Part shown: positions 2,701-21,165 of the stretch, in pieces
Position numbering within the stretch: the first letter of the stretch is position 1
Layout of the letters: the number at the start of each line of letters is the position of its first letter
Assembly (NCBI RefSeq): GCF_028747985.1
Contig: NZ_CP118108.1
Span: 618,501 to 682,500 of the forward strand
Reading direction: 5' to 3'
Length of the DNA: 64,000 nucleotides
DNA from: Paenibacillus urinalis
GTDB taxonomy: Bacteria; Bacillota; Bacilli; Paenibacillales; Paenibacillaceae
The notes under the pieces: model-generated
The model's input: the letters and a program-made list of their open reading frames with translations, nothing else
Told to the model about the DNA's origin: nothing
Databases searched by the model: none
Program-made: the position numbers and the translations under genes

Positions 2701-4194
2701 ATGGAGGATGCACACAATAATCTTATGATTCATAAACCCATGGTTGAATTCAAAAATGTCAGCTATCAATACGAAGGAGAGGCCAGCCCTGTGCTGAAGG
2801 GCCTCTCTTTTTCCATTTCCCAAGGGGAGCGGGTTGCTCTGATCGGAGGCAGCGGAAGCGGCAAATCTACGGTATGTCAGCTGCTTAATGGGTACTTGCC
2901 CCGGTCCGGCGGAGGGAAACGCACGGGAGAACTGCGGGTTCGTGGTCTGGACCCGGCCGTCGCTTCGATTGCCGATATTGCAGCGGTCTGCGGATTGGTA
3001 TTTCAGGACCCGGATGCACAGCTCGTTCAGGGCATCGTCGAGGACGAGGTCGCATTTGGCCCGGAGAACTTATGCCTTGCTCCTGAGCTGCTGGAACAGC
3101 GGGTAAGTGACGCTCTCAGCGCTGTGTCGCTTGTGGAGAAACGGTTCGATGAAGTGTCCCGGCTGTCCGGGGGGCAGAAGCAGCGGACCGCAATCAGCAG
3201 CATTCTGGCGCTCGCACCAGAGGTGCTCGTCTTCGACGATGCGGCGGCGAGCCTTGACCCGCCGGCGCAGCGAAGACTCGTGCAGCTATGCAGCGCGCTG
3301 CACGAGCAGGGCCGGACGCTCATCACCGCGTCCGGGCGGTTTGACGATCACGCACTGCAAGCGTCGCGCGTGATCGTCCTGGATGGCGGTGCCGTGCGCT
3401 TCGCCGGCACGCCGCAGGAGCTGCTCCGCGAGCATGCTGCGGAGCTTGCGGCCTTGGGCCTTACGCCCCCGCCCCGAGGCGAAGCTCCGGGGCGGGAGGC
3501 ACGGGCCCAAGGCCAGCCCCCGCTGCTCGCGGCGCGGGGGCTTACGTTCACCTATCCTGCTGGCCGCAAGGCGCTGCAGGAGGTGAACGGTACGCTGTCA
3601 GCAGGTCAGTGGACCCTACTGACCGGCGAGAACGGCTCAGGCAAGACGACCCTGAGCCGACTCATGATGGGCTTGCTGCCGGTGCCGAAGCGAAGCCTGT
3701 ATTTTCAAGGCAGGGATATCGCTGAGCTCAAGGTGCATCAGCTGTCCAGAGAGATGGGATACGTCTTTCAGCAGCCGGAGCATCAATTCGTGGCGAGTAC
3801 GGTGCGGGAGGAATGTATCTACGGGATTCGGGGAGCACTGTCGCTGAAGCCTGAAGATGTTATTCCGGAAGCTCATGCTGAAGCAGCAATGGATCTGCTT
3901 AAGGTAACCGGATTAATCGGCAAAAAGAATGCCTCGCCCTATCTGCTCAGCGGCGGTGAGAAGAAGCTGCTCAGTGTCATCGCCCAGCTGGTCGTCCCGA
4001 AGCAGCTCTACATCTTGGACGAGCCGACAGCCGGACTTGATTACGCCATGATTGAGGCCCTCATACAGCTGTGCAGACAGAAGGTGGATGAGCGAGCAGC
4101 GATCCTGATGATTACGCATGATACCGAGCTCTTGGCTGCTCATGCCGATCAAATATGGCATCTTGCAGATGGGCGTTTGGATGTGCAGAAGTAA
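2701..4194 (+). CDS. ECF transporter double ATPase (YkoD-like, two ABC domains fused)
   Basis: 497 residues holding two ABC ATPase domains that power the ECF importer. Domain 1: Walker A GGSGSGKST (49-57), signature LSGGQ, Walker B ending D179-D180. Domain 2: Walker A GENGSGKTT (309-317), signature LSGGE, Walker B DEPT (D440-E441), switch His H473. Domain 1 is atypical: the catalytic Glu is Asp (FDDAAASLD) and the switch-His position reads ITAS (208-211), so only one ATP site should be fully canonical. The linker (about residues 248-282) is GC-rich, Pro/Arg/Gly-rich and is encoded by a long inverted repeat. The S component gene is 12 bases upstream. Confidence 0.9.
   Translation: MEDAHNNLMIHKPMVEFKNVSYQYEGEASPVLKGLSFSISQGERVALIGGSGSGKSTVCQLLNGYLPRSGGGKRTGELRVRGLDPAVASIADIAAVCGLVFQDPDAQLVQGIVEDEVAFGPENLCLAPELLEQRVSDALSAVSLVEKRFDEVSRLSGGQKQRTAISSILALAPEVLVFDDAAASLDPPAQRRLVQLCSALHEQGRTLITASGRFDDHALQASRVIVLDGGAVRFAGTPQELLREHAAELAALGLTPPPRGEAPGREARAQGQPPLLAARGLTFTYPAGRKALQEVNGTLSAGQWTLLTGENGSGKTTLSRLMMGLLPVPKRSLYFQGRDIAELKVHQLSREMGYVFQQPEHQFVASTVREECIYGIRGALSLKPEDVIPEAHAEAAMDLLKVTGLIGKKNASPYLLSGGEKKLLSVIAQLVVPKQLYILDEPTAGLDYAMIEALIQLCRQKVDERAAILMITHDTELLAAHADQIWHLADGRLDVQK
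3450..3514 (+). repeat. GC-rich nested inverted repeat inside the ATPase linker
   Basis: An outer perfect 11-bp arm pair (3450-3460 with 3504-3514, core GCCTTGGGCC / GGCCCAAGGC) encloses an inner perfect 9-bp pair (3468-3476 CCCGCCCCG with 3488-3496 CGGGGCGGG) and an 11-base loop. It encodes the Pro/Gly/Arg-rich linker between the two ABC domains and lies in a locally GC-rich stretch (about 3200-3560) unlike its surroundings. Confidence 0.85.
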
Positions 4195-11742: not shown

Positions 11743-12135
11743 TTGATCTACGGGATTGGCAACGATGTGCTGGAGACAGACCGGATTGCTCAAATCATGG
11801 AAGGCACTCATAGGGCCAGATTTCTCAGCCGAGTGCTGACAGAAGAGGAGCGAGCTGTACTTAGTGGGCGTACACAGAGTGAAGTTCAGTATGTATCCGG
11901 AAGGTTTGCAGCGAAGGAAGCGATATCCAAAGCGTTTGGCTGTGGAATCGGGGAGCTGCTGAGCTTCCAGGATATTGAGATTTTACCGAATAAGCTGGGG
12001 AAGCCGACTGCGACGATCTCTGAGTCCGCTTGGAAACGGCTTGGTCTTAGCGGCGAGTATTCTTACATGGTACACATCAGCATCTCGCATCAGCCAAGTG
12101 TGGCCGCTGCCTTCGCCATCGTTGAACGGATGTAA
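11743..12135 (+). CDS. acpS: holo-[acyl-carrier-protein] synthase
   Basis: 130 residues. Transfers 4'-phosphopantetheine from CoA to the acyl carrier protein Ser, activating fatty-acid synthesis. IYGIGNDVLETDRI supplies the Mg-binding Asp, and FAAKEAISKAFG the conserved Glu/Lys of group I transferases; HISISHQPSVAAAFAI is the usual end. I chose TTG 11743 because it gives the family N-terminus MIYGIG and AAGGTGG lies 9 bases upstream; in-frame GTGs at 11731 and 11734 overlap that site. The mutY gene follows 52 bases later. Confidence 0.93.
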   Translation: MIYGIGNDVLETDRIAQIMEGTHRARFLSRVLTEEERAVLSGRTQSEVQYVSGRFAAKEAISKAFGCGIGELLSFQDIEILPNKLGKPTATISESAWKRLGLSGEYSYMVHISISHQPSVAAAFAIVERM

Positions 12136-12187
12136 CTGAGGATTATACGAATCATTTAGTATTACAGAATGGGAGAATAGGAATCGA

Positions 12188-13342
12188 ATGAATCATAGCA
12201 ATGCAAAAAAATTCTTTAGCACGGAGCTGCTTCATTGGTATATGCAAAATAAACGCGATCTTCCGTGGCGGCGACATCGGGACCCGTATTACATATGGGT
12301 ATCGGAGATCATGCTGCAGCAGACAAGAGTGGATACGGTGATCCCGTATTTTCAGCGTTTTATTGAACGCTTTCCGACGATACAGGATTTGGCAGAGGCT
12401 CCTGAGGAGGACGTGCTCAAGCTGTGGGAGGGACTGGGATATTACTCTCGTGCCCGTAATTTGCAGGCAGCCGCAAGGCAGGTCATGGAGCAGCATGGCG
12501 GGGAAGTTCCGAACCAGAAGGACGCGGTCTTTAATCTTAAAGGCGTTGGTCCTTACACTGCGGGTGCAATACTGAGCATCGCGTTTAATCAGCCACAGCC
12601 TGCGGTAGATGGAAATGTCATGCGGGTGCTGTCACGTTATTTTCTGATCGAAGATGACATTATGAAGGGCAGCACAAGAGTCAAGATGGAGTCGCTGGCA
12701 GAGGAGCTCATCCCGGAGGGACGAGCATCGGATTTCAATCAGGCACTAATGGAGCTCGGAGCGCTCGTATGTACACCCAAATCTCCACATTGTCTGACCT
12801 GTCCAGTGATGGAGATGTGCACGGGACGGATTGAGGGACGGGAAGAAACCTTACCTGTGAAGAAAAAGGCCAAGCCCCCTCGCCCCGAGCAGAGAATTGC
12901 TGCGCTTGTTGTCGGTACGGGGGTGAATGAAGGGAAGGTGCTGGTTCGTCAGCGTCCTGCAACCGGCTTGCTGGCCAAGATGTGGGAGCTTCCTCATATG
13001 CAGGCATCAGCACCTGGCGAGCTGGCCCATCTGGTTCCTCACGAGCCTGCGATGGATCTGATTGCCGGACATTTGCTTGAGGAGGGCTATCACGTTAAGC
13101 CTACAACGTTCTGGAGAATGGCTGAGCATACCTTCAGCCATATTCATTGGAATCTGCAGGTATATCATTGTGCAGAAGCGGAAGCTGTGCTGACATCCTC
13201 TATGGTTGCAGAGCAGGTCGAAGCATATAAGGAAGAAGGACATCTGTACCGATGGATCGAGCCGAAGGATATGGATACCATGGCCTTTCCGAATGTATTT
13301 CTGAAATTATTGCGCGATTATTTTAATGAGTTGAAAGACTAG
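12188..13342 (+). CDS. mutY: A/G-specific adenine DNA glycosylase
   Basis: 384 residues. Removes adenine mispaired with 8-oxoguanine. The LPWRRHRDPYYIWVSEIMLQQTRV N-terminus, the helix-hairpin-helix LKGVGPYTAGAILSIAF with the catalytic Asp in QPAVDGNVMRVLSRY, and the 4Fe-4S loop with four Cys (CTPKSPHCLTCPVMEMC) are all present. The C-terminal third is a NUDIX-like domain (from about residue 235) that reads the 8-oxoG. GGGAGAATAG precedes the ATG. Co-oriented with acpS, strong terminator behind. Confidence 0.96.
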   Translation: MNHSNAKKFFSTELLHWYMQNKRDLPWRRHRDPYYIWVSEIMLQQTRVDTVIPYFQRFIERFPTIQDLAEAPEEDVLKLWEGLGYYSRARNLQAAARQVMEQHGGEVPNQKDAVFNLKGVGPYTAGAILSIAFNQPQPAVDGNVMRVLSRYFLIEDDIMKGSTRVKMESLAEELIPEGRASDFNQALMELGALVCTPKSPHCLTCPVMEMCTGRIEGREETLPVKKKAKPPRPEQRIAALVVGTGVNEGKVLVRQRPATGLLAKMWELPHMQASAPGELAHLVPHEPAMDLIAGHLLEEGYHVKPTTFWRMAEHTFSHIHWNLQVYHCAEAEAVLTSSMVAEQVEAYKEEGHLYRWIEPKDMDTMAFPNVFLKLLRDYFNELKD

Positions 13343-13360
13343 ATAGTGAAGAGCTTAAGA

Positions 13361-13418
13361 AAAAAAGCAGTCTCAGAATAAAACGGCAAAGGCCGCTTTA
13401 TTCTGGACTGCTTTTTTT
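13361..13418. terminator. bidirectional terminator between mutY and sodA
   Basis: AAAAAAGCAGTC ... GACTGCTTTTTTT with an inner CAGAATAAA/TTTATTCTG stem; A- and T-runs on both sides serve the convergent genes. Confidence 0.92.
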
Positions 13419-13463
13419 AGAAGCAAACAGCGTTGCCGCTGTTTAACTGCAGAGGTCTAATTC

Positions 13464-14075
13464 TTATTTCGCTGCAGCGTAACGTTTATTTACTTCATCC
13501 CAGTTGATTACATTCCAGAATGCTCCGATGTAGTCAGGACGTTTGTTTTGATATTTCAGGTAGTAAGCATGCTCCCATACATCCAGACCAAGAACTGGAG
13601 TCAAGCCTTCAAATACAGGGCTGTCCTGGTTAGGCGTGCTTGTGATTGCCAATTTGCCGTCTTTGCCAACAACCAGCCAAGCCCAGCCGCTGCCGAAACG
13701 AGTTGTTGCTGCTTTTGCAAAATCTTCTTTGAATTTGTCATAGCCGCCTAGCTCGCTGTCAATTGCTGCAGCGATTTCGCCTGTAGGAGCGCCACCGCCG
13801 TTAGGTCCGATAATTTCCCAGAACAGGCTGTGGTTGTAATGACCGCCGCCGTTGTTGCGGACTGCTGTACGGATGCTCTCAGGTACGCTGTCGAGGTTCG
13901 CAAGCAGCTCTTCAAGGGATTTCTCTTGAAGCTCAGGAGCGCTTTCCAAAGCAGCGTTCAGGTTCGTTACATAAGTATTGTGATGGCGATCGTGGTGGAT
14001 TTCCATCGTTTGAGCGTCGATATGTGGTTCTAATGCATCGTTTGCGTAAGGAAGTGCTGGTAATTGGAATGCCAT
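13464..14075 (-). CDS. sodA: superoxide dismutase, Mn type
   Basis: 203 residues. Converts superoxide to hydrogen peroxide and oxygen. Metal ligands are visible: His27 in MEIHHDRHH, the His of HYNHSLFWE, and Asp/His of [11 protein letters not shown]. The [10 protein letters not shown] block and Gln in [10 protein letters not shown] point to Mn rather than Fe specificity. ATG at 14075 is chosen because AGGAGG precedes it by 10 bases; the longer frame upstream has no such site. Cytosolic. A second SOD-domain gene lies at 19795. Confidence 0.96.
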
Positions 14076-14296
14076 GATTGAAATTCCTCCTAAAAATAAA
14101 TTAAAGGTTAAATCTTTATGTAGATTTCCCCTCGACACTTATATTAAACCTTATTCAGTCTATTTAATCAACATTTTTGTTTGTTAAGCTGTTATAAAAG
14201 GGTTTTAATATAACATGAAATTAACAAAACAATTTTCAAACTCTATTACTGTGTTAACTAGTTTAACACCAAATATACAAAGTTTAGCAATAAAAA

Positions 14297-14324
14297 TGTA
14301 AGCGCTTGATATTAAGCGCTTACA
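14297..14324. promoter_or_regulatory. 11-bp inverted repeat, cre-like / terminator-like, upstream of sodA
   Basis: TGTAAGCGCTT (14297-14307), a 6-base spacer, then AAGCGCTTACA (14314-14324): a perfect dyad. Each arm looks like half of a CcpA cre site. Read on the minus strand it is followed by TTTTTATT, so it could instead be a terminator or leader attenuator. It lies about 220 bases before the sodA start codon. Confidence 0.6.
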
Positions 14325-14455
14325 GAAGAAAAAGCGTGTTTTCTGGAGCAAAGTGTGGTTTAATGGACGATGAAGAAGATATATCTCGTTTTTTGTCATA
14401 TTATCATTTCCTGAACATTTCTGGCTCTCCTTAATAGGCGTGGCAGATGTTTCGG

Positions 14456-14475
14456 CCGGCTTTTTGCCGGTTTTT
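14456..14475 (+). terminator. small terminator-like hairpin
   Basis: CCGGC, five T, GCCGG, then TTTTT. No upstream plus-strand gene explains it; it may end a short untranslated transcript. Confidence 0.5.
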
Positions 14476-14591
14476 CCGTCTGTACATATCATTCTAATAT
14501 ATTCAGATGGATCATCATCGGGTTTTTGGTAAAAAGGGCGTGCCTTTTTTGTAAAACCTCACTAAAGATAACGAAAAGGGAGATTTAGCAG

Positions 14592-15017
14592 ATGAACGTT
14601 CGTTCCTTTCAGTTGAGTGACGCAAATGGTGTAACAGAGCTTCTTGCGGCTGCTTTGTCGGAAGATTGCTTTGAGAACACGATGGGTCCTTTCGCTCGCC
14701 AGTTGTCCTGGGATTCAGACCTTATTATGGTTGCTGAGCAGGATGGGGAGCTGATCGGTGCTTTAATCGGTACTATTGATCAGAACCATGGTTGTATTTA
14801 TCGTATTGCGGTTCACCCTGATTTCAGACGTCAAGGCGTTGGAAAAGCCCTGGTTAAGGCGCTTGAACAGCGTTTTCAACAGCGCAAGGTAAGAGGGGTG
14901 TGGGTCGCTGGTGATGAGCATAACAAAGCCGCGATGCCGCTATATGAAGCGATGGGTTACGGAGCTAGTCAGGTCATGAAGGCATTCCAGAATCTTAGTA
15001 TTCTTGCACACAGCTAA
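14592..15017 (+). CDS. GNAT-family N-acetyltransferase
   Basis: 141 residues. The N-terminus MNVRSFQLSDANGVTELL and the central IAVHPDFRRQGVGKALVKALEQRF (acetyl-CoA pyrophosphate loop R-x-x-G-x-G/A) are standard for single-domain GNAT enzymes. The C-terminal YEAMGYGASQVMKAF matches the usual last strand. AAAAGGGAG lies about 10 bases upstream of the ATG. The substrate cannot be told. Followed by a terminator; the signal peptidase gene comes next. Confidence 0.88.
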   Translation: MNVRSFQLSDANGVTELLAAALSEDCFENTMGPFARQLSWDSDLIMVAEQDGELIGALIGTIDQNHGCIYRIAVHPDFRRQGVGKALVKALEQRFQQRKVRGVWVAGDEHNKAAMPLYEAMGYGASQVMKAFQNLSILAHS

Positions 15018-15140
15018 TAGAGTGCTTTGAATGCAAGGTATAGGTTTGCTAGATTGGCGTCTCATGTTCAAGCAATGAGCGAGATTAGATATAGAGAGAG
15101 AACATAGGTATTATTCTATTTTATTGCTAATCCATAATAG

Positions 15141-15186
15141 GCATATCTTGGCTTCCAATTGCAAATGGAACTGAGATATGCTTTTC
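15141..15186 (+). terminator. terminator before lepB
   Basis: GCATATCT and AGATATGC arms with an inner CCA/TGG pairing, then TTTT. Confidence 0.65.
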
Positions 15187-15231
15187 TATTGATATGGCAT
15201 TTTTAATATAATCTTGAGGTGATAGAAGCAA

Positions 15232-15816
15232 ATGAGCCGCGAAATACCGCCAGATATAGAGAATACGGCGACAACATCCTCTTCGGGCTCAACTCTGTCT
15301 GGAGAGCTTCTGGATTGGCTTAAGACCATTTTGGTTGCTGTCGTACTGATGCTGCTTCTTAATTTGTTTGTCTTCAATATTTCCATTGTTAAGGGCGAAT
15401 CAATGCAGCCAACCCTAGTTGAACAAGATCGTTTGTTCATTAATAAGATCGTATACGAATTTGATACGCCGAAGCGTCACGACGTCGTCGTGCTGCATGA
15501 TCCGAGCCATACGCCTGATCGTAAAGAATTCCTTGTCAAAAGAGTCATTGGTATTCCCGGGGATATGGTAGAAATACGGGAACACGTACTATATATCAAC
15601 GAAGAGCCTCAGACGGAACCCTATACAAATACTCCAATTGAGGATCCGGATTTTGGTCCAATCCGGCTTGAAGAAGGCCGTTACTTCGTTATGGGAGATA
15701 ACAGGCATGCAGGCAAGAGCAAGGATAGCCGATCGTTTGGGAGTGTCTCAGCTGAAGAGATCGTCGGGAAGGCCGAATTTATTTTTTGGCCGATGAGTGA
15801 TATGAAGAAGCTGTGA
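15232..15816 (+). CDS. lepB: type I signal peptidase
   Basis: 194 residues. Membrane-anchored serine protease that cleaves signal peptides of secreted proteins outside the membrane. One transmembrane helix (about 30-52), then catalytic Ser57 in KGESMQPTL and catalytic Lys103 in FLVKRVIGIPGD. The late block YFVMGDNRHAGKSKDSRSFG is the family box E. Length and single-helix design fit Gram-positive SipS-type enzymes. AGGTGATAG precedes the ATG. The next gene starts 106 bases later. Confidence 0.95.
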   Translation: MSREIPPDIENTATTSSSGSTLSGELLDWLKTILVAVVLMLLLNLFVFNISIVKGESMQPTLVEQDRLFINKIVYEFDTPKRHDVVVLHDPSHTPDRKEFLVKRVIGIPGDMVEIREHVLYINEEPQTEPYTNTPIEDPDFGPIRLEEGRYFVMGDNRHAGKSKDSRSFGSVSAEEIVGKAEFIFWPMSDMKKL

Positions 15817-15922
15817 ATGGGAACAGAAGATTAGGCTATACAGATATATGTGAGGAATTCACGTTTATTCCATTGAAGACAGCCAGAGATATTATGAATT
15901 GGATTAGATTAGAGGTGATCAT

Positions 15923-17764
15923 ATGATTAGTCGAGACTCGCTCGTAAGCCCAGGAGTACATTTTGAGTGGCTGAAGCAGGAGATCAAGCAGGCAGCACCG
16001 TCTTTTGGAATCGATGATATTGGTTTTGCCTCCGCTGAACCCTTTGAATCCTTGCGTTCCATATTGCTGGAGCATCGTGCCAAGGGCCATGAGTCAGGAT
16101 TTGAAGAGCCTGATATTGAGAAGCGGGTCAATCCCGCGCTGGAATCGGGTAAGCCTGCTTCGCTCATTGCTATTGCCATTGCCTACCCATCCAAGATGAA
16201 GGATCCGCCTAAGTCAGAGCCTGGCAGCTACAGAGGGATATTGGCCCGCTCAGCTTGGGGACAGGATTACCATCATGTTCTGAGGGCAGCGATGGACAAG
16301 CTCACCGCTTTTATCCAGGAGAAGGTTCCAGAGGCGCGCATTGAGAATATGGTGGACACGGGTGTTCTGGTGGACCGGGCTGTATCTGAGCGGGCGGGAA
16401 TCGGCTTCAGTGGCAAAAACTGCGCGATCATATCACCCAAGTTCGGTTCATGGATATTTCTAGGGGAACTCATAACAGACATCCCATTTACACCGGATGC
16501 GCCGGTGACAGAAGGATGCGGAGAATGCACGAAGTGCATTGATGCCTGCCCTACAGGAGCGCTTGTTGGCCCGGGACAGCTGAATGCCCAGAAGTGCATT
16601 TCTTTTTTGACGCAAACCAAAGGCTTTTTGGACGAAGAATATATGAAGAAGATCGGGAATCGATTGTATGGCTGTGATACATGCCAGATCGTATGCCCGA
16701 AGAATAGAGGGAAGAATTGGGATCATCATCCTGAATTTGCGCCCGACCCCGAGATTGTCAAGCCTTTGCTTAAACCGCTGCTCTTCCTGAGCAATAAGGA
16801 ATTTAAGGAACGGTTTGGACACAGCTCTGCCGCTTGGCGAGGTAAAAAACCAATACAACGCAATGCCGTCATCGCGCTTGGCAATTTTAAAGATCAAAGC
16901 GCTGTACCCGAGCTGAGCGAAGTATTGCTGCGGGATCCTCGTCCCGAACTGAGAGGAACCGCTGCTTGGTCGCTCAGCCAAATAGGAGGAGAAGAAGCAA
17001 TGAATGTGATATCGGAAGCTGCTGCAAGAGAACAAGATGGGAACGTACTGGACATGCTGCAGAGAGCCCAGGAGAAGCTGCTCATGGGGCCTCTATCCGA
17101 GAAGAAGAAATCCGAAGCAGAGTTTGCGGCTGAATTTGGTTCGTCTGAAACGAGTTCATCGGATGGCAGTAACAATGAATCTAATATGGCACTGAATCGC
17201 AGTGACAACAAAGCAGCCTGGAAGCCTACTCCGGTAACCAAGCTTACGGGTGAGCCTGTTTATTATCATGAAATATCAACAGAAGCAGGAGAGCTGACGC
17301 TTTGTGCCACGGAACAAGGACTTGCAAGGCTCGATTTTGGCAACTATACCGTAAGAGAGGCACATCTGCAGCAATGGGCACGCACTTGGCTGGGTGAATA
17401 TCATTTTGTACATGATCCATCCCGGTTTCAAGAGGTGACATGGCAGCTTCAGGAATATTTTTCTGGTGAGCGTACGGAGTTCCAGCTTCAGCTGGATCTA
17501 AGAGGAACACCATTCGAGCTGCAGGTATGGCAGGCACTCACAGAGATCGCATATGGTCAGCATGTCTCAAGTCTTGGATTAGCAGAGAAGATAGGTAGAC
17601 CGAAGGCTGTTCGCTCGGTTGTGGCGGCGGTATCCAAAAATCCGCTTCCTATTATTATTCCTCATCACCGTTTAACGGGAAGTGAGGGTGGAGTAACGAT
17701 ATACCCTGGAGGGCTGCACGTGAAGGAACGCCTGCTCTCATTGGAAGGGCAGAAGTCGAATTGA
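15923..17764 (+). CDS. queG: QueG epoxyqueuosine reductase fused to an alkyltransferase-like (MGMT/ATL) domain
   Basis: 613 residues against about 380 for ordinary QueG. Residues 1-390 are QueG, the cobalamin-dependent enzyme that reduces epoxyqueuosine to queuosine in tRNA: first iron-sulfur motif C199-C202-C205-C209, second C251-C254-C258, and a HEAT-like tail (about 315-385). A Ser/Asn-rich linker (about 393-440) leads to a domain like O6-methylguanine-DNA methyltransferase: FELQVWQALTEIAYG, GRPKAVRSVVAAVSKNP (DNA-reading helix) and IIIPHHRL. The acceptor Cys of PCHR is His581, so it cannot take a methyl group in the normal way and resembles ATL proteins. One continuous reading frame. Confidence 0.9.
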   Translation: MISRDSLVSPGVHFEWLKQEIKQAAPSFGIDDIGFASAEPFESLRSILLEHRAKGHESGFEEPDIEKRVNPALESGKPASLIAIAIAYPSKMKDPPKSEPGSYRGILARSAWGQDYHHVLRAAMDKLTAFIQEKVPEARIENMVDTGVLVDRAVSERAGIGFSGKNCAIISPKFGSWIFLGELITDIPFTPDAPVTEGCGECTKCIDACPTGALVGPGQLNAQKCISFLTQTKGFLDEEYMKKIGNRLYGCDTCQIVCPKNRGKNWDHHPEFAPDPEIVKPLLKPLLFLSNKEFKERFGHSSAAWRGKKPIQRNAVIALGNFKDQSAVPELSEVLLRDPRPELRGTAAWSLSQIGGEEAMNVISEAAAREQDGNVLDMLQRAQEKLLMGPLSEKKKSEAEFAAEFGSSETSSSDGSNNESNMALNRSDNKAAWKPTPVTKLTGEPVYYHEISTEAGELTLCATEQGLARLDFGNYTVREAHLQQWARTWLGEYHFVHDPSRFQEVTWQLQEYFSGERTEFQLQLDLRGTPFELQVWQALTEIAYGQHVSSLGLAEKIGRPKAVRSVVAAVSKNPLPIIIPHHRLTGSEGGVTIYPGGLHVKERLLSLEGQKSN

Positions 17765-17783
17765 CAAAAACACCAAATTGCGT

Positions 17784-17812
17784 TTGCTAGCCGCGTTTCT
17801 ACATGCTATGAT
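17784..17812 (+). promoter_or_regulatory. promoter of yneF-like gene
   Basis: TTGCTA, 17 bases, TATGAT; the start codon follows at 17868. Confidence 0.5.
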
Positions 17813-17867
17813 ATCGTGTATGATGCGTTAAGAATAGCAATCAAGCGAAAAACAGGGGTGTATAAGT

Positions 17868-18128
17868 ATGGATATCGTTATTCCCATTATTACACTAATT
17901 GTGGGCCTCGTTGGGGGATTCTTTATCGGTGCATTCTATCTGCGCAAGCAGCTTGAGAAGATGCAGAGTGATCCTGAGGCTCTACAAAAAATGGCAAAAC
18001 AAATGGGCTACAATTTGAACAGCAAGCAGATGCAGCGTGCTCAACAGATGATGAAATCCCAGCAGGGCGGAAATGGTGCAGGCAAGATGCAGCCGCCTAT
18101 GCGCAAGAACCAGGGAAGAAAAAGATAA
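17868..18128 (+). CDS. YneF-family (UPF0154) small membrane protein
   Basis: 86 residues: one N-terminal transmembrane helix (about 4-26, IPIITLIVGLVGGFFIGAFYL) and a basic, Gln/Met-rich cytosolic tail (KMAKQMGYNLNSKQMQRAQQMM). This matches the pattern of B. subtilis YneF, though the tail is longer and ends in a Gly/Gln/Lys/Arg-rich stretch. Function of the family is unknown. AGGGGTG precedes the ATG. folE begins 57 bases downstream and may share the transcript. Confidence 0.75.
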   Translation: MDIVIPIITLIVGLVGGFFIGAFYLRKQLEKMQSDPEALQKMAKQMGYNLNSKQMQRAQQMMKSQQGGNGAGKMQPPMRKNQGRKR

Positions 18129-18185
18129 TGCTGCAATCTTGCCTGCCAGGTACAGGTGTATGCCGCTTGGGAGGAGGAAGAAGGA

Positions 18186-18779
18186 ATGGCTGGAGTTAAA
18201 GATTACATGAACTCTTCTGTCGGCGCTAATCGCGAGAAGATTGAGTATCATGTTGAACAGATATTGAAGCTGATCGGTGAAGACACAGAACGTGAAGGTC
18301 TGCTGGAAACACCGGCTAGAGTTACCCGCATGTACGAGGAGATTTTTGCGGGCTATGAAGTAAATCCTAGAGATGTACTTGGTGTCACTTTTGATGAGAA
18401 CCATGAGGAGCTCGTCATTGTGAAGGATATTGTGTACTACAGTCAATGTGAGCATCATATGGCTCCTTTCTTCGGCAAGGTCCATATCGGATATGTGCCA
18501 AGTGGACAAATTGTCGGACTTAGTAAGCTTGCGAGACTAGTTGAGGCTGTAACTCGTCGTCTGCAGGTGCAGGAGCGGATTACTTCGCAAATTGCGGACA
18601 TCCTTGAGGATGCGCTTAAGCCGAATGGGGTCATGGTTGTTGTGGAAGGAGAACATCTGTGTATGTGTGCTCGTGGTGTGAAGAAGCCGGGCAGCAAGAC
18701 AGTGACTTCTGCTACACGTGGTACATTCCGGGATAATGCCGCTTCCCGGGCTGAGTTCCTGTCTCTTGTTAAAGGTTAA
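18186..18779 (+). CDS. folE: GTP cyclohydrolase I
   Basis: 197 residues. Makes dihydroneopterin triphosphate from GTP, the first step of folate synthesis and, with QueD/QueE/QueC elsewhere, of queuosine. Zinc and catalytic residues are visible in YYSQCEHHMAPFFGKVHIGY and GEHLCMCARGVKKPGSKTVT. LVEAVTRRLQVQERIT is the usual helix. I chose ATG 18186 because GGAGGAGG lies about 9 bases before it. Terminator 17 bases after the stop. Confidence 0.96.
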   Translation: MAGVKDYMNSSVGANREKIEYHVEQILKLIGEDTEREGLLETPARVTRMYEEIFAGYEVNPRDVLGVTFDENHEELVIVKDIVYYSQCEHHMAPFFGKVHIGYVPSGQIVGLSKLARLVEAVTRRLQVQERITSQIADILEDALKPNGVMVVVEGEHLCMCARGVKKPGSKTVTSATRGTFRDNAASRAEFLSLVKG

Positions 18780-18796
18780 TCTCGAAATTTCGGAAA

Positions 18797-18826
18797 GTCT
18801 TGATCGAATTGATCAAGGCTTTTTTA
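18797..18826 (+). terminator. terminator after folE
   Basis: AGTCTTGATC, loop, GATCAAGGCT then TTTTTT. Confidence 0.85.
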
Positions 18827-18845
18827 TTAGGGGGAGAAGACGCAC

Positions 18846-19661
18846 ATGGCGAGGGAAGATACACTGCTTCACAAATTCGAGGAGATCCAGATTTGGGAAT
18901 CGCCGCTTATGAAGAAGGATGAGGACGTGCTTGAAGCTTTTGCATGGGAAGAAGTGATGTGCAGGCAAGTGGGGCTGGGGCATCGCCCTGTCGCTCATCT
19001 CTGGCGTCACGAGAATGCGCTTGTCATCGGTCTCCGAGACCGCAGGCTGAAGAAGGCGGAGGAAGCCATGCAGCAATTTCGGAATAAGGGGATAAGCACC
19101 TGTGTGCGTCCTTCTGGAGGTGCAGCGGTCAGACTGACCAGAGGAGTGGTGAATCTAAGTCTCATGCTTCCGAACCCTGGACATGCTATTAACATCCATG
19201 ATGATTTTAAATCCATGGTTGAATATATTCGGAAGGCGATTCTTCCCTGGGGCGGTCATGCAGTGGCAGGAGAGATCGAAGGAGCCTATTGCCCGGGAGA
19301 CTATGATGTCGCGATCAATGGACGGAAGTTTTGCGGAATTGCCCAGCGCCGTTTGGCCAAGGCCTATCTTGTTACCGGCTTTATCATCGTGGAAGGAAGC
19401 GGGGATGAGCTGACAGAAGACATCATCCAGTTCTATGATCAGGCAGCCGGGGATGCTGATGAGGGCTATCCTCAAGTGAGGTACGGGAGCATGGGAAGTC
19501 TAAATGAGCTGTCGGGTGTACCGTCTGCTGAGGCATACATGCAGTCTTTAATAGAAACGATCGGTGCTTCAGCAGAGAAGGTGTATACCGGAGCTAGGCC
19601 ATCTGTTCCTCAATCCGAGGTGGAGCGCACAGTCGCCGTGTTAAAGGAGCGTTACGATTAA
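18846..19661 (+). CDS. lipL: octanoyl-[GcvH]:protein N-octanoyltransferase
   Basis: 271 residues. Moves octanoyl groups from the glycine-cleavage H protein to lipoyl domains of 2-oxoacid dehydrogenases. The Cys149 acyl acceptor lies in EGAYCPGDYDVAINGRKFCGIAQRR, the block I recall from B. subtilis LipL (YwfL), and the N-terminal layout (FAWEEVMC ... VRPSGGAAVRL ... GVVNLSLML) is also LipL-like rather than LplA-like. GGGGGAGAAG precedes the ATG. An LplA-type ligase is the alternative, but the Cys argues for LipL. Confidence 0.85.
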   Translation: MAREDTLLHKFEEIQIWESPLMKKDEDVLEAFAWEEVMCRQVGLGHRPVAHLWRHENALVIGLRDRRLKKAEEAMQQFRNKGISTCVRPSGGAAVRLTRGVVNLSLMLPNPGHAINIHDDFKSMVEYIRKAILPWGGHAVAGEIEGAYCPGDYDVAINGRKFCGIAQRRLAKAYLVTGFIIVEGSGDELTEDIIQFYDQAAGDADEGYPQVRYGSMGSLNELSGVPSAEAYMQSLIETIGASAEKVYTGARPSVPQSEVERTVAVLKERYD

Positions 19662-19685
19662 GCTCATCCTATAACAGGTATAGTG

Positions 19686-19712
19686 AAAAAAGACCTCAGA
19701 ACGAGGTCTTTT
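19686..19712. terminator. bidirectional terminator
   Basis: AAAAAGACCTC and GAGGTCTTTT around a 5-base loop, between convergent genes. Confidence 0.85.
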
Positions 19713-19794
19713 ACTTTGAGAATAGAGGTGCGATTAGACAGCCTACATTATTCTAAGAACTATGGAGAGCTGTCTTGGTACGTGCTTACTACTT

Positions 19795-21012
19795 TTAATA
19801 AGGAGTCCATTTCAGCTTGCGGGCTTCCTGGAATCGTTCTGCCACAGCAGGCCAGTTTACGACGTTCCACCAGTCCGTAATGTATTTCTTGCGTTCATTC
19901 TGATGCTTCAAGTAATAGGCATGCTCCCACACATCCAGTGGAAGAAGCGGAACAATATCATATTGCGATAGATTTTGATGCTTCTCTGCCTGTAATATTT
20001 CTAACCGATGTGCTCTTGGGCTCCACACCAACACAGCCCATCCGCCGCCTTCCACCTTATTGGCTGCTTCTGTAAAGTGCTTCTTAAATGCTTCATAGCT
20101 TCCGAAATCCTTGCGGATCTGTTCACCCAATGAACCGACAGGCTTTCCGCCGCCATTCGGGCTCATGGTGTCCCAGAAGATGGTATGGAGATAATGTCCT
20201 GCTCCGTTAAAGGCCAGCTCTCGTTCCCAATGCTTCACAAGCTCGAAATTCCCGGTTTGCCGTGCTTCCTGAAGCTTCTTCTCTGCGGTGTTAAGATCGT
20301 CAACATACGTTTTATGATGCTTGTCATGATGAATGCGCATCGTCTTCTCATCAATATAGGGCTCCAGCGCATTGTAAGGATAAGGCAGCGGCGGCAGCTT
20401 GTGCCCTCCAATCGGAACTGGAGACGCAGGAGGGGAGCTGTCTGCTGCTGCGGTGTCTGATACAGTGAGAGCAGCGGATAATTCCTGAACCAGTTCCTCG
20501 GAAGCTCCCGTTCGCGGTGACGACACTTCCGGATAAGGGAAGGGCTCTTCATTCCAGATGCTTCTAGGTTTTACTCTTTGGGAGATGGCTGCGGGTTGAT
20601 CCAGTCCGCGGAGTCTGTTCACATTATGCTCTGATTGGTCCTGGATGTATCGGAAAACAACCTCAGCAGCAGGGTTGCTTGATAGAGCTGCACTATGCTC
20701 AAGGATATGTCCGAGATGGCGATGGAACTCCTTCGATTGGGTAAACGCAGCGGCGAGCAGCACATCGAGCTGACCAAGCGCATAATCATCCGGCGGCTGT
20801 ACGCCTGTGCTTACCCGCTGAAGCAGATCATCGGCTGCATCGGCCGATCGTTGGAATACGCTTCCCCATTCATTGAGAAGCTTCACATAGGCCTCCTCAA
20901 GGTCCGGTGCAATCGAAGTAATCATATTTGTGCATCCCATTTCAGTATCCTTCCAAGACCTTATCTCTTCCAGCGCGCGCAGCGGTAAATAGGGTCCATA
21001 ACTGAGCTCCAT
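19795..21012 (-). CDS. SodF-like superoxide dismutase with N-terminal helical domain
   Basis: 405 residues, twice a normal SOD. Residues 203-405 are an Fe/Mn SOD domain most like B. subtilis SodF: ligands His228 (MRIHHDKHH), His276 (GHYLHTIFW), Asp360 and His364 (DVWEHAYY). Residues 1-140 are a helical domain with conserved-looking His/Glu (SWKDTEMGC, EFHRHLGHILEHS, IQDQSEHNVNRL), like four-helix DUF2935-type domains. A Pro/Ser-rich linker (about 141-203) joins them. ATG 21012 is chosen because GGGAGGT precedes it by 9 bases. Whether the SOD domain is active is not shown by sequence. Confidence 0.85.
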   Translation of the reverse strand: MELSYGPYLPLRALEEIRSWKDTEMGCTNMITSIAPDLEEAYVKLLNEWGSVFQRSADAADDLLQRVSTGVQPPDDYALGQLDVLLAAAFTQSKEFHRHLGHILEHSAALSSNPAAEVVFRYIQDQSEHNVNRLRGLDQPAAISQRVKPRSIWNEEPFPYPEVSSPRTGASEELVQELSAALTVSDTAAADSSPPASPVPIGGHKLPPLPYPYNALEPYIDEKTMRIHHDKHHKTYVDDLNTAEKKLQEARQTGNFELVKHWERELAFNGAGHYLHTIFWDTMSPNGGGKPVGSLGEQIRKDFGSYEAFKKHFTEAANKVEGGGWAVLVWSPRAHRLEILQAEKHQNLSQYDIVPLLPLDVWEHAYYLKHQNERKKYITDWWNVVNWPAVAERFQEARKLKWTPY

Positions 21013-21165
21013 AAGCTCGGCACCTCCCAAGAATCATTCTTATTTAAACCTAATGTTATGCATAGCAGCAGACGGCGTAATGATCTAACGTATACTTATT
21101 CTCATTAGAGCTTGGACTATGATGACTTGTCAAAATAAGAGAGAGTTTGAAAAAGGATATGAGAA

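Follow-up and report, generated by a model that had tools for sequence, protein, structure and literature searches.

Within a 64,000-nucleotide stretch of Paenibacillus urinalis DNA (hereafter the window), one uninterrupted frame encoding 613 residues joins a complete epoxyqueuosine reductase (QueG) to an alkyltransferase (AGT)-like module, as a first-pass annotation of this DNA had already read it (Table 1). Judged by profile match, the N-terminal part is a complete QueG: the NCBIfam equivalog model TIGR00276 matches residues 21–353 at 402 bits (cut-off, 200), and QueG_DUF1730, Fer4_16 and HEAT_2 score above their Pfam cut-offs in the same protein, together with Methyltransf_1N (446–526) and DNA_binding_1 (530–609) of the AGT module. 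QueG enzymes carry two 4Fe-4S clusters held by eight Cys ligands; in the QueG part, C199, C202, C205, C209, C225, C251, C254 and C258 are invariant in 97/97 fused proteins. This set of 97, which also underlies the residue, dN/dS and codon counts given below, comprises 73 proteins of the genus and 24 of other genera and leaves out two broken copies (L054 and L055) as well as the window protein itself, represented by L001. The C-terminal module has the two-domain AGT fold both by its Pfam matches and in a predicted structure, the alignment for which comprised 75 of 119 relatives (P0002–P0120). An Rfam scan of window positions 12000–20000 at the gathering score detected no RNA elements around the gene. 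Downstream of the fused gene lies an ORF that looks FolE-like by eye (GTP cyclohydrolase; window 18156–18779, + strand), a class of enzyme that also supplies queuosine precursors. Two further ORFs, at 19795–21030 and 13464–14138 (both on the – strand), resemble superoxide dismutases by eye, one of them with about 200 extra residues ahead of the dismutase part.

Table 1. Features of the fused queG-agt gene in window coordinates.
Feature	Position	Strand	Basis or remark
queG-agt fused gene	15923..17764 (stop included)	+	ATG start, 613 aa, no internal stops
QueG module, epoxyqueuosine reductase	15959..17110	+	residues 13–396
Internal Shine-Dalgarno core GGAGG	16985..16989	+	codons 355–356, Gly-Gly
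Predicted short product from M360, 254 aa (HEAT end, linker and AGT module)	17000..17764	+	in-frame GGAGG and start codon
Linker, predicted disordered	17135..17239	+	residues 405–439, pLDDT <50
AGT N-terminal (ribonuclease-like) domain	17258..17500	+	residues 446–526, Methyltransf_1N PF02870, E 4.7e-14
AGT C-terminal DNA-binding/active-site domain	17510..17749	+	residues 530–609, Pfam DNA_binding_1
Ser550 instead of base-flipping Tyr (human Y114)	17570..17572	+	alignment of 97 fused proteins
Val567 instead of recognition-helix Gly	17621..17623	+	alignment of 97 fused proteins
PHHR, His581 instead of acceptor Cys	17660..17671	+	residues 580–583, aligned with Cys of solved AGTs

The QueG-AGT fusion is ordinary for the genus Paenibacillus. 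All 75 genus genomes searched carry the fused locus, which rules out an assembly artefact; the gene is unbroken in 73 of them and interrupted by frame changes, either real or due to assembly errors, in G006 (L055) and G056 (L054). In the nearest genus genome, G001, the corresponding protein matches that of the window at 100% identity. Protein searches returned 10 relatives in a first and 705 in a second round, 120 of the latter being listed. The record of one near relative (P0002), filed as Neobacillus mesonae, is possibly mislabelled, all other named matches of the same search belonging to Paenibacillus or Saccharibacillus. Since databases label such proteins either QueG or methylated-DNA--protein-cysteine methyltransferase, the architecture as such is already on record. 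A description of it was not found among the matches listed by a literature search that had most subscription journals outside its reach, in keeping with the first-pass annotation, which knew of none; as far as literature searches centred on the fusion show, the description of the fusion and the predicted internal start considered below are new.

The motif PHHR at the place of the canonical PCHR, likewise picked up at first pass, is genuine: the same His recurs in eight species, ruling out a sequencing error as the cause of acceptor loss. The question then raised, whether the residue after this Pro is always non-Cys in Paenibacillus, is answered in the negative, as Pro580 is followed by Cys in 67 of the 75 genus genomes and by His in eight (L001–L008, hereafter the His clade). 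Two departures went unmentioned at that stage, namely the absence of the base-flipping Tyr (Ser550) and the replacement of the recognition-helix Gly, three residues past the Arg finger, by Val567. Position 550 is Ser in 8/8 His-clade proteins, His in 46/46 members of a sister group and Tyr in the 43/43 others; position 567 is Val in 8/8, Leu (42) or Ser (4) in the sister group and Gly in 42/43 others, the helix Gly being gone from both derived groups. With respect to the flipping and acceptor positions, the 97 proteins fall into three states: Tyr+Cys (19 of the genus and 24/24 of other genera), His+Cys (46, or 48 when the two broken copies are included by motif) and Ser+His (8). Other parts of the site are preserved throughout, with Arg564 (Arg finger), Asn573 (hinge), His582, Arg583, Tyr594 (pocket) and Glu608 invariant in 97/97. 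Compared with the residues that define AGT/Ogt proteins, whose roles we take from the accessible part of PMC10779285, the window protein retains the Arg finger, the Asn hinge and the activating His and Glu (R564, N573, H582 and E608) and lacks the acceptor Cys and the flipping Tyr, the latter a Phe in some species.

The fusion belongs with a queG-ogt gene pair with which it shares ancestry. Among 40 loci from other genera of the family, the two genes are fused in 14 and lie side by side as separate genes in 10, and the stretch fetched shows queG without an AGT gene in the other 16; an AGT gene also adjoins queG in nine other Bacilli families, at nine of the ten loci selected from outside the family. 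Genus, length of the open frame or query coverage guided the choice of these loci (L121–L160 and L161–L170), and the figures are counts rather than rates. In 9/10 pairs of the family, ogt overlaps the queG stop by 1–14 nt if it is taken to begin at the start codon whose predicted ribosome-binding site scores best. All 19 neighbouring ogt genes (10 family, 9 other-family) encode PCHR and the flipping Tyr, and the AGT tree unites fused and adjacent AGTs in a single clade that excludes 15 stand-alone Ogts (100/99). On the QueG tree, the label 'fused' requires eight changes, five of which well-supported branches make unavoidable; fusion or separation has therefore occurred more than once. Separate genes and a Cys at this position in related genomes had been named beforehand as observations that would speak against the first-pass reading. 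Both exist, the Cys in the majority of genus genomes and the two-gene arrangement in other genera, but the fusion within the genus stands, and the separate queG and Cys-bearing ogt genes of other genera point to descent from a gene pair. Several Bacilli families link an alkyltransferase to an enzyme that modifies the tRNA wobble base; a proposed reason for this link was not found in the literature searched. All eight His-clade genomes additionally encode a stand-alone Ogt with PCHR, so that ordinary repair capacity probably remains in these species.

In the QueG tree, each residue-state group lies on one side of a branch, with support values of 100/99 for Ser+His and 100/98 for His+Cys. The two derived groups are united with 91/58 and 94/80 in two QueG trees, the first built with 16 of the 46 sister-group members and the second, like the AGT-domain tree, with the genus reduced to 13 fused genes, and with 99/97 in the AGT-domain tree. 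Because the two groups join on QueG and AGT trees alike, loss of the flipping Tyr probably preceded that of the acceptor Cys. The stem of the His clade is 0.36 long in the AGT tree, compared with 0.11 in one QueG tree and 0.17 in the other, suggestive of fast change before constraint resumed; it fits a spell of relaxed constraint as well.

At present, the AGT domain of the His clade is under purifying selection similar to that on its Cys-bearing relatives. Based on pairwise Nei-Gojobori estimates summed over pairs with whole-gene dS of 0.05–1.2, the His clade, for which 9 of 28 pairs could be used, has an AGT-domain dN/dS of 0.065. The sister group comes to 0.066, the Tyr+Cys genes of the genus to 0.078 and the fusions of other genera to 0.106. 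The corresponding values ranged from 0.024 to 0.041 for QueG and from 0.17 to 0.52 for the linker (residues 384–440) over the four groups, with 0.52 in the His clade. A decaying AGT domain would drift toward the linker value, which it does not, and simple decay is therefore disfavoured. Low dN/dS is nevertheless silent on which function is kept, and folding of the fusion could be what is selected. The AGT part might then be a structural remnant devoid of a binding job, conserved only because its misfolding would harm the attached QueG, an idea for which the loss of Tyr, helix Gly and Cys, the long AGT-tree stem and the presence of a spare Ogt could be enlisted. We consider this unlikely, given that Arg564, His582, Arg583, Tyr594 and Glu608 as pocket and flipping residues have stayed invariant, that the step from Cys (TGT/TGC) to His (CAT/CAC), identical in all eight species, requires two base changes, and that 16 of the 40 chosen family loci have a QueG lacking an AGT in the stretch fetched. 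Moreover, the linker is predicted to be disordered, so that a tail without function could have been shed.

A second conserved feature lies upstream of the linker. Met360 (ATG at 17000–17002) follows an internal GGAGG by 10 nt, and the sequence suggests that translation may also start here, yielding a separate 254-aa AGT protein beside the fusion. In 73/73 unbroken genus genes, GGA occupies codon 355 and either GGA or GGG codon 356, and all of these genes have ATG at codon 360; both broken copies have GGAGG and ATG, too. With Gly-Gly encoded here, a GGA at codon 355 suffices to create GGAGG, and the signal for a ribosome site therefore amounts to a single invariant codon, a second one limited to GGA or GGG, and the ATG. 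Each of the remaining 33 invariant Gly positions uses three or four different codons, and among 179 sites of four-fold or higher degeneracy that keep their residue in the genus, codon 355 alone is fully fixed and codon 356 ranks eighth lowest in variation. Relative to the expectation from each gene's own GGA usage, GGAGG was present in 46/46 sister-group genes (expected 10.5), 8/8 His-clade genes (expected 3.0) and 19/19 Tyr+Cys genes (expected 3.3). Fused genes of other genera have GGAGG in 15/24 cases (expected 5.6) and combine it with ATG or TTG at codon 360 in 12/24; where residue 360 is Leu, TTG is the codon in 8/9 genes versus 17% usage, although kinship of these genes means that the computed probability overstates the TTG excess. 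Unfused QueGs have the motif in 3/24 genes of the family (expected 4.9; 24 of 26 were counted, L144 and L158 being missed by the motif pattern) and in 3/10 of other Bacilli families. Speaking against an internal start, Saccharibacillus-type fusions lack a start codon at position 360 in 6/6 and GGAGG in 5/6 cases, and the occasional GGAGG of unfused QueGs weighs in the same direction.

Predicted pairing with the 16S rRNA end gave -10.9 kcal/mol at the codon-360 site versus -12.3 kcal/mol at the gene's own start. The site ranked first or second among the start-like codons of the frame in 66/73 genus genes (8 His-clade, 41 sister-group and 17 Tyr+Cys genes). The next commonest in-frame GGAGG-starts were at residue 336 in 9/19 Tyr+Cys genes and at residue 600 in 3/8 His-clade genes; in a comparison of all such starts, none besides that at 360 was kept in all three genus groups. 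A Shine-Dalgarno spacing of 10 nt would be long for E. coli. For S. aureus, the accessible part of PMC13009471 reports spacings 2–3 nt longer than those of E. coli. Synonymous change reaches minima near codons 346–377 in the His clade, the Tyr+Cys group and the sister group, and in the latter also at the 3' end of the gene. When the genus is pooled, the 12-codon windows of lowest synonymous change miss codon 355, meaning that the genus-wide signal consists of GGAGG and ATG only and that the dips near 350–375 appear clade by clade.

The second region of low synonymous change in the sister group spans residues 521–613, is as low as the stretch near codons 362–373 and extends into the downstream spacer; an example is L013 at about positions 3100–3545, one of the members L009–L030 in which the gene 3' end and the following spacer show little nucleotide change. 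It could reflect recent recombination or a regulatory stretch that these genes have in common.

The conserved GGAGG at codon 355 need not serve initiation. Situated near the end of QueG, it might instead impose an elongation pause at the border to the AGT part, and slowing by internal Shine-Dalgarno-like sites has been proposed, albeit called controversial, in the accessible part of PMC5100845. We hold a pause to be a rather unlikely alternative: the start codon 10 nt downstream is kept as well, both as the genus-wide ATG and as the TTG preferred at Leu360 in other fused genera, and the uniqueness of the site among in-frame GGAGG-starts in the three genus groups is awkward for it, too. The site combines a strong Shine-Dalgarno sequence with an in-frame start, both conserved beyond the needs of the protein, as one would look for in an internal initiation site. 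An internal start at codon 360 is a sharp, testable prediction.

As to what the Cys-less module does, the first-pass annotation had drawn attention to alkyltransferase-like proteins (ATLs), which likewise lack the Cys and flag alkylated bases for repair. Taken literally, the domain would bind O6-alkylguanine in duplex DNA and summon nucleotide excision repair; the missing acceptor, the retained Arg finger, Arg583 and pocket Tyr594, and an AGT fold predicted with confidence would all suit such a role. However, according to the accessible part of PMC10779285, ATLs keep the flipping Tyr and are devoid of both the Asn hinge and the N-terminal AGT domain, while the window protein has Ser550 and Val567 in place of Tyr and helix Gly and possesses N573 and the N-terminal domain. 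Shared with ATLs are the AGT-like fold, the replaced acceptor (by His) and the Arg finger; since the defining traits just named do not hold here, we reject membership among the ATLs. The canonical Ogt in each of the eight His-clade genomes also weighs against an ATL-like damage flag, a role that strikes us as decidedly unlikely. None of the 50 fold matches listed for the predicted structure is an ATL structure, a result with no bearing on this issue. Another thought is that His581 might itself act as alkyl acceptor or as a metal or catalytic ligand and thus bring new chemistry into the pocket. Its fixation in 8/8 proteins, its position next to conserved His582 and the retention of Glu608 would allow for this, but we know of no AGT with His as acceptor and noticed by eye no private Cys/His/Asp cluster in an alignment with four His-type proteins; we deem such chemistry highly improbable.

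The explanation we prefer, and credit with about an even chance of being correct, is that of a genus-wide fusion related to the queG-ogt pair, whose AGT part in the His clade has become a pseudo-alkyltransferase kept as a binding module and made in both fused and free form. The QueG part would serve queuosine formation in tRNA, with the AGT module attached via a flexible linker and probably also produced alone from the ribosome-binding site at codon 360. Most relatives have a module with the looks of a suicide alkyltransferase. In the eight species of the His clade, which have lost both the acceptor Cys and the residues used to flip a base from duplex DNA (Tyr and helix Gly), alkyl transfer is presumably absent and flipping from duplexes presumably weakened. 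The module may then have been selected as a binder, most likely of an unpaired alkylated or otherwise modified purine, from which no alkyl group would be transferred. Since the base pocket (Tyr594, Arg583, His582 and Glu608) is kept, binding of an unpaired purine would be the simplest surviving role, and AGTs are able to act on single-stranded DNA without flipping, as stated in the accessible part of PMC10779285. One may go further and imagine one gene with two proteins, QueG-AGT and free AGT made by internal initiation, in which the His-clade pocket has turned into a reader of an unpaired purine such as tRNA wobble base 34, coupling queuosine formation to alkylation damage or modification state; in this elaborate version the scenario is a long shot. 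Seen across the genus, the gene offers a natural record of an alkyltransferase that gave up its flipping residues and then, it would seem, its acceptor while selection on it continued; the Cys-bearing sister species can serve as controls.

Set against known systems, the fusion differs from QueG as represented by the B. subtilis enzyme (5d08/5d0a/5d0b; TIGR00276) by the linker and AGT module past the HEAT end and by the conserved predicted internal start. With Ogt/MGMT proteins (M. tuberculosis OGT, 4wx9; TIGR00589) it shares both AGT domains, the Arg finger, the Asn hinge, the His-Arg past the Cys site, the pocket Tyr and the Glu, but the window protein is without acceptor Cys and flipping Tyr and has Val for the helix Gly. 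ATLs such as Atl1 and E. coli ATL resemble it in having an AGT-like fold without acceptor Cys and in retaining the Arg finger; they differ in that they mostly have Trp at the site, keep the Tyr and lack the hinge Asn and the N-terminal domain, as far as the accessible part of PMC10779285 describes them. An AGT that is Cys-less and Tyr-less, under selection and not a classical ATL appears unusual. The same source, in its accessible part, mentions the AGT-EndoV fusion of Ferroplasma and archaeal ATL-EndoV fusions, which also join an AGT or ATL to an enzyme acting on nucleic acid (PMC10779285); there the partner is a DNA nuclease, whereas the partner in the window fusion is a tRNA-modifying reductase.
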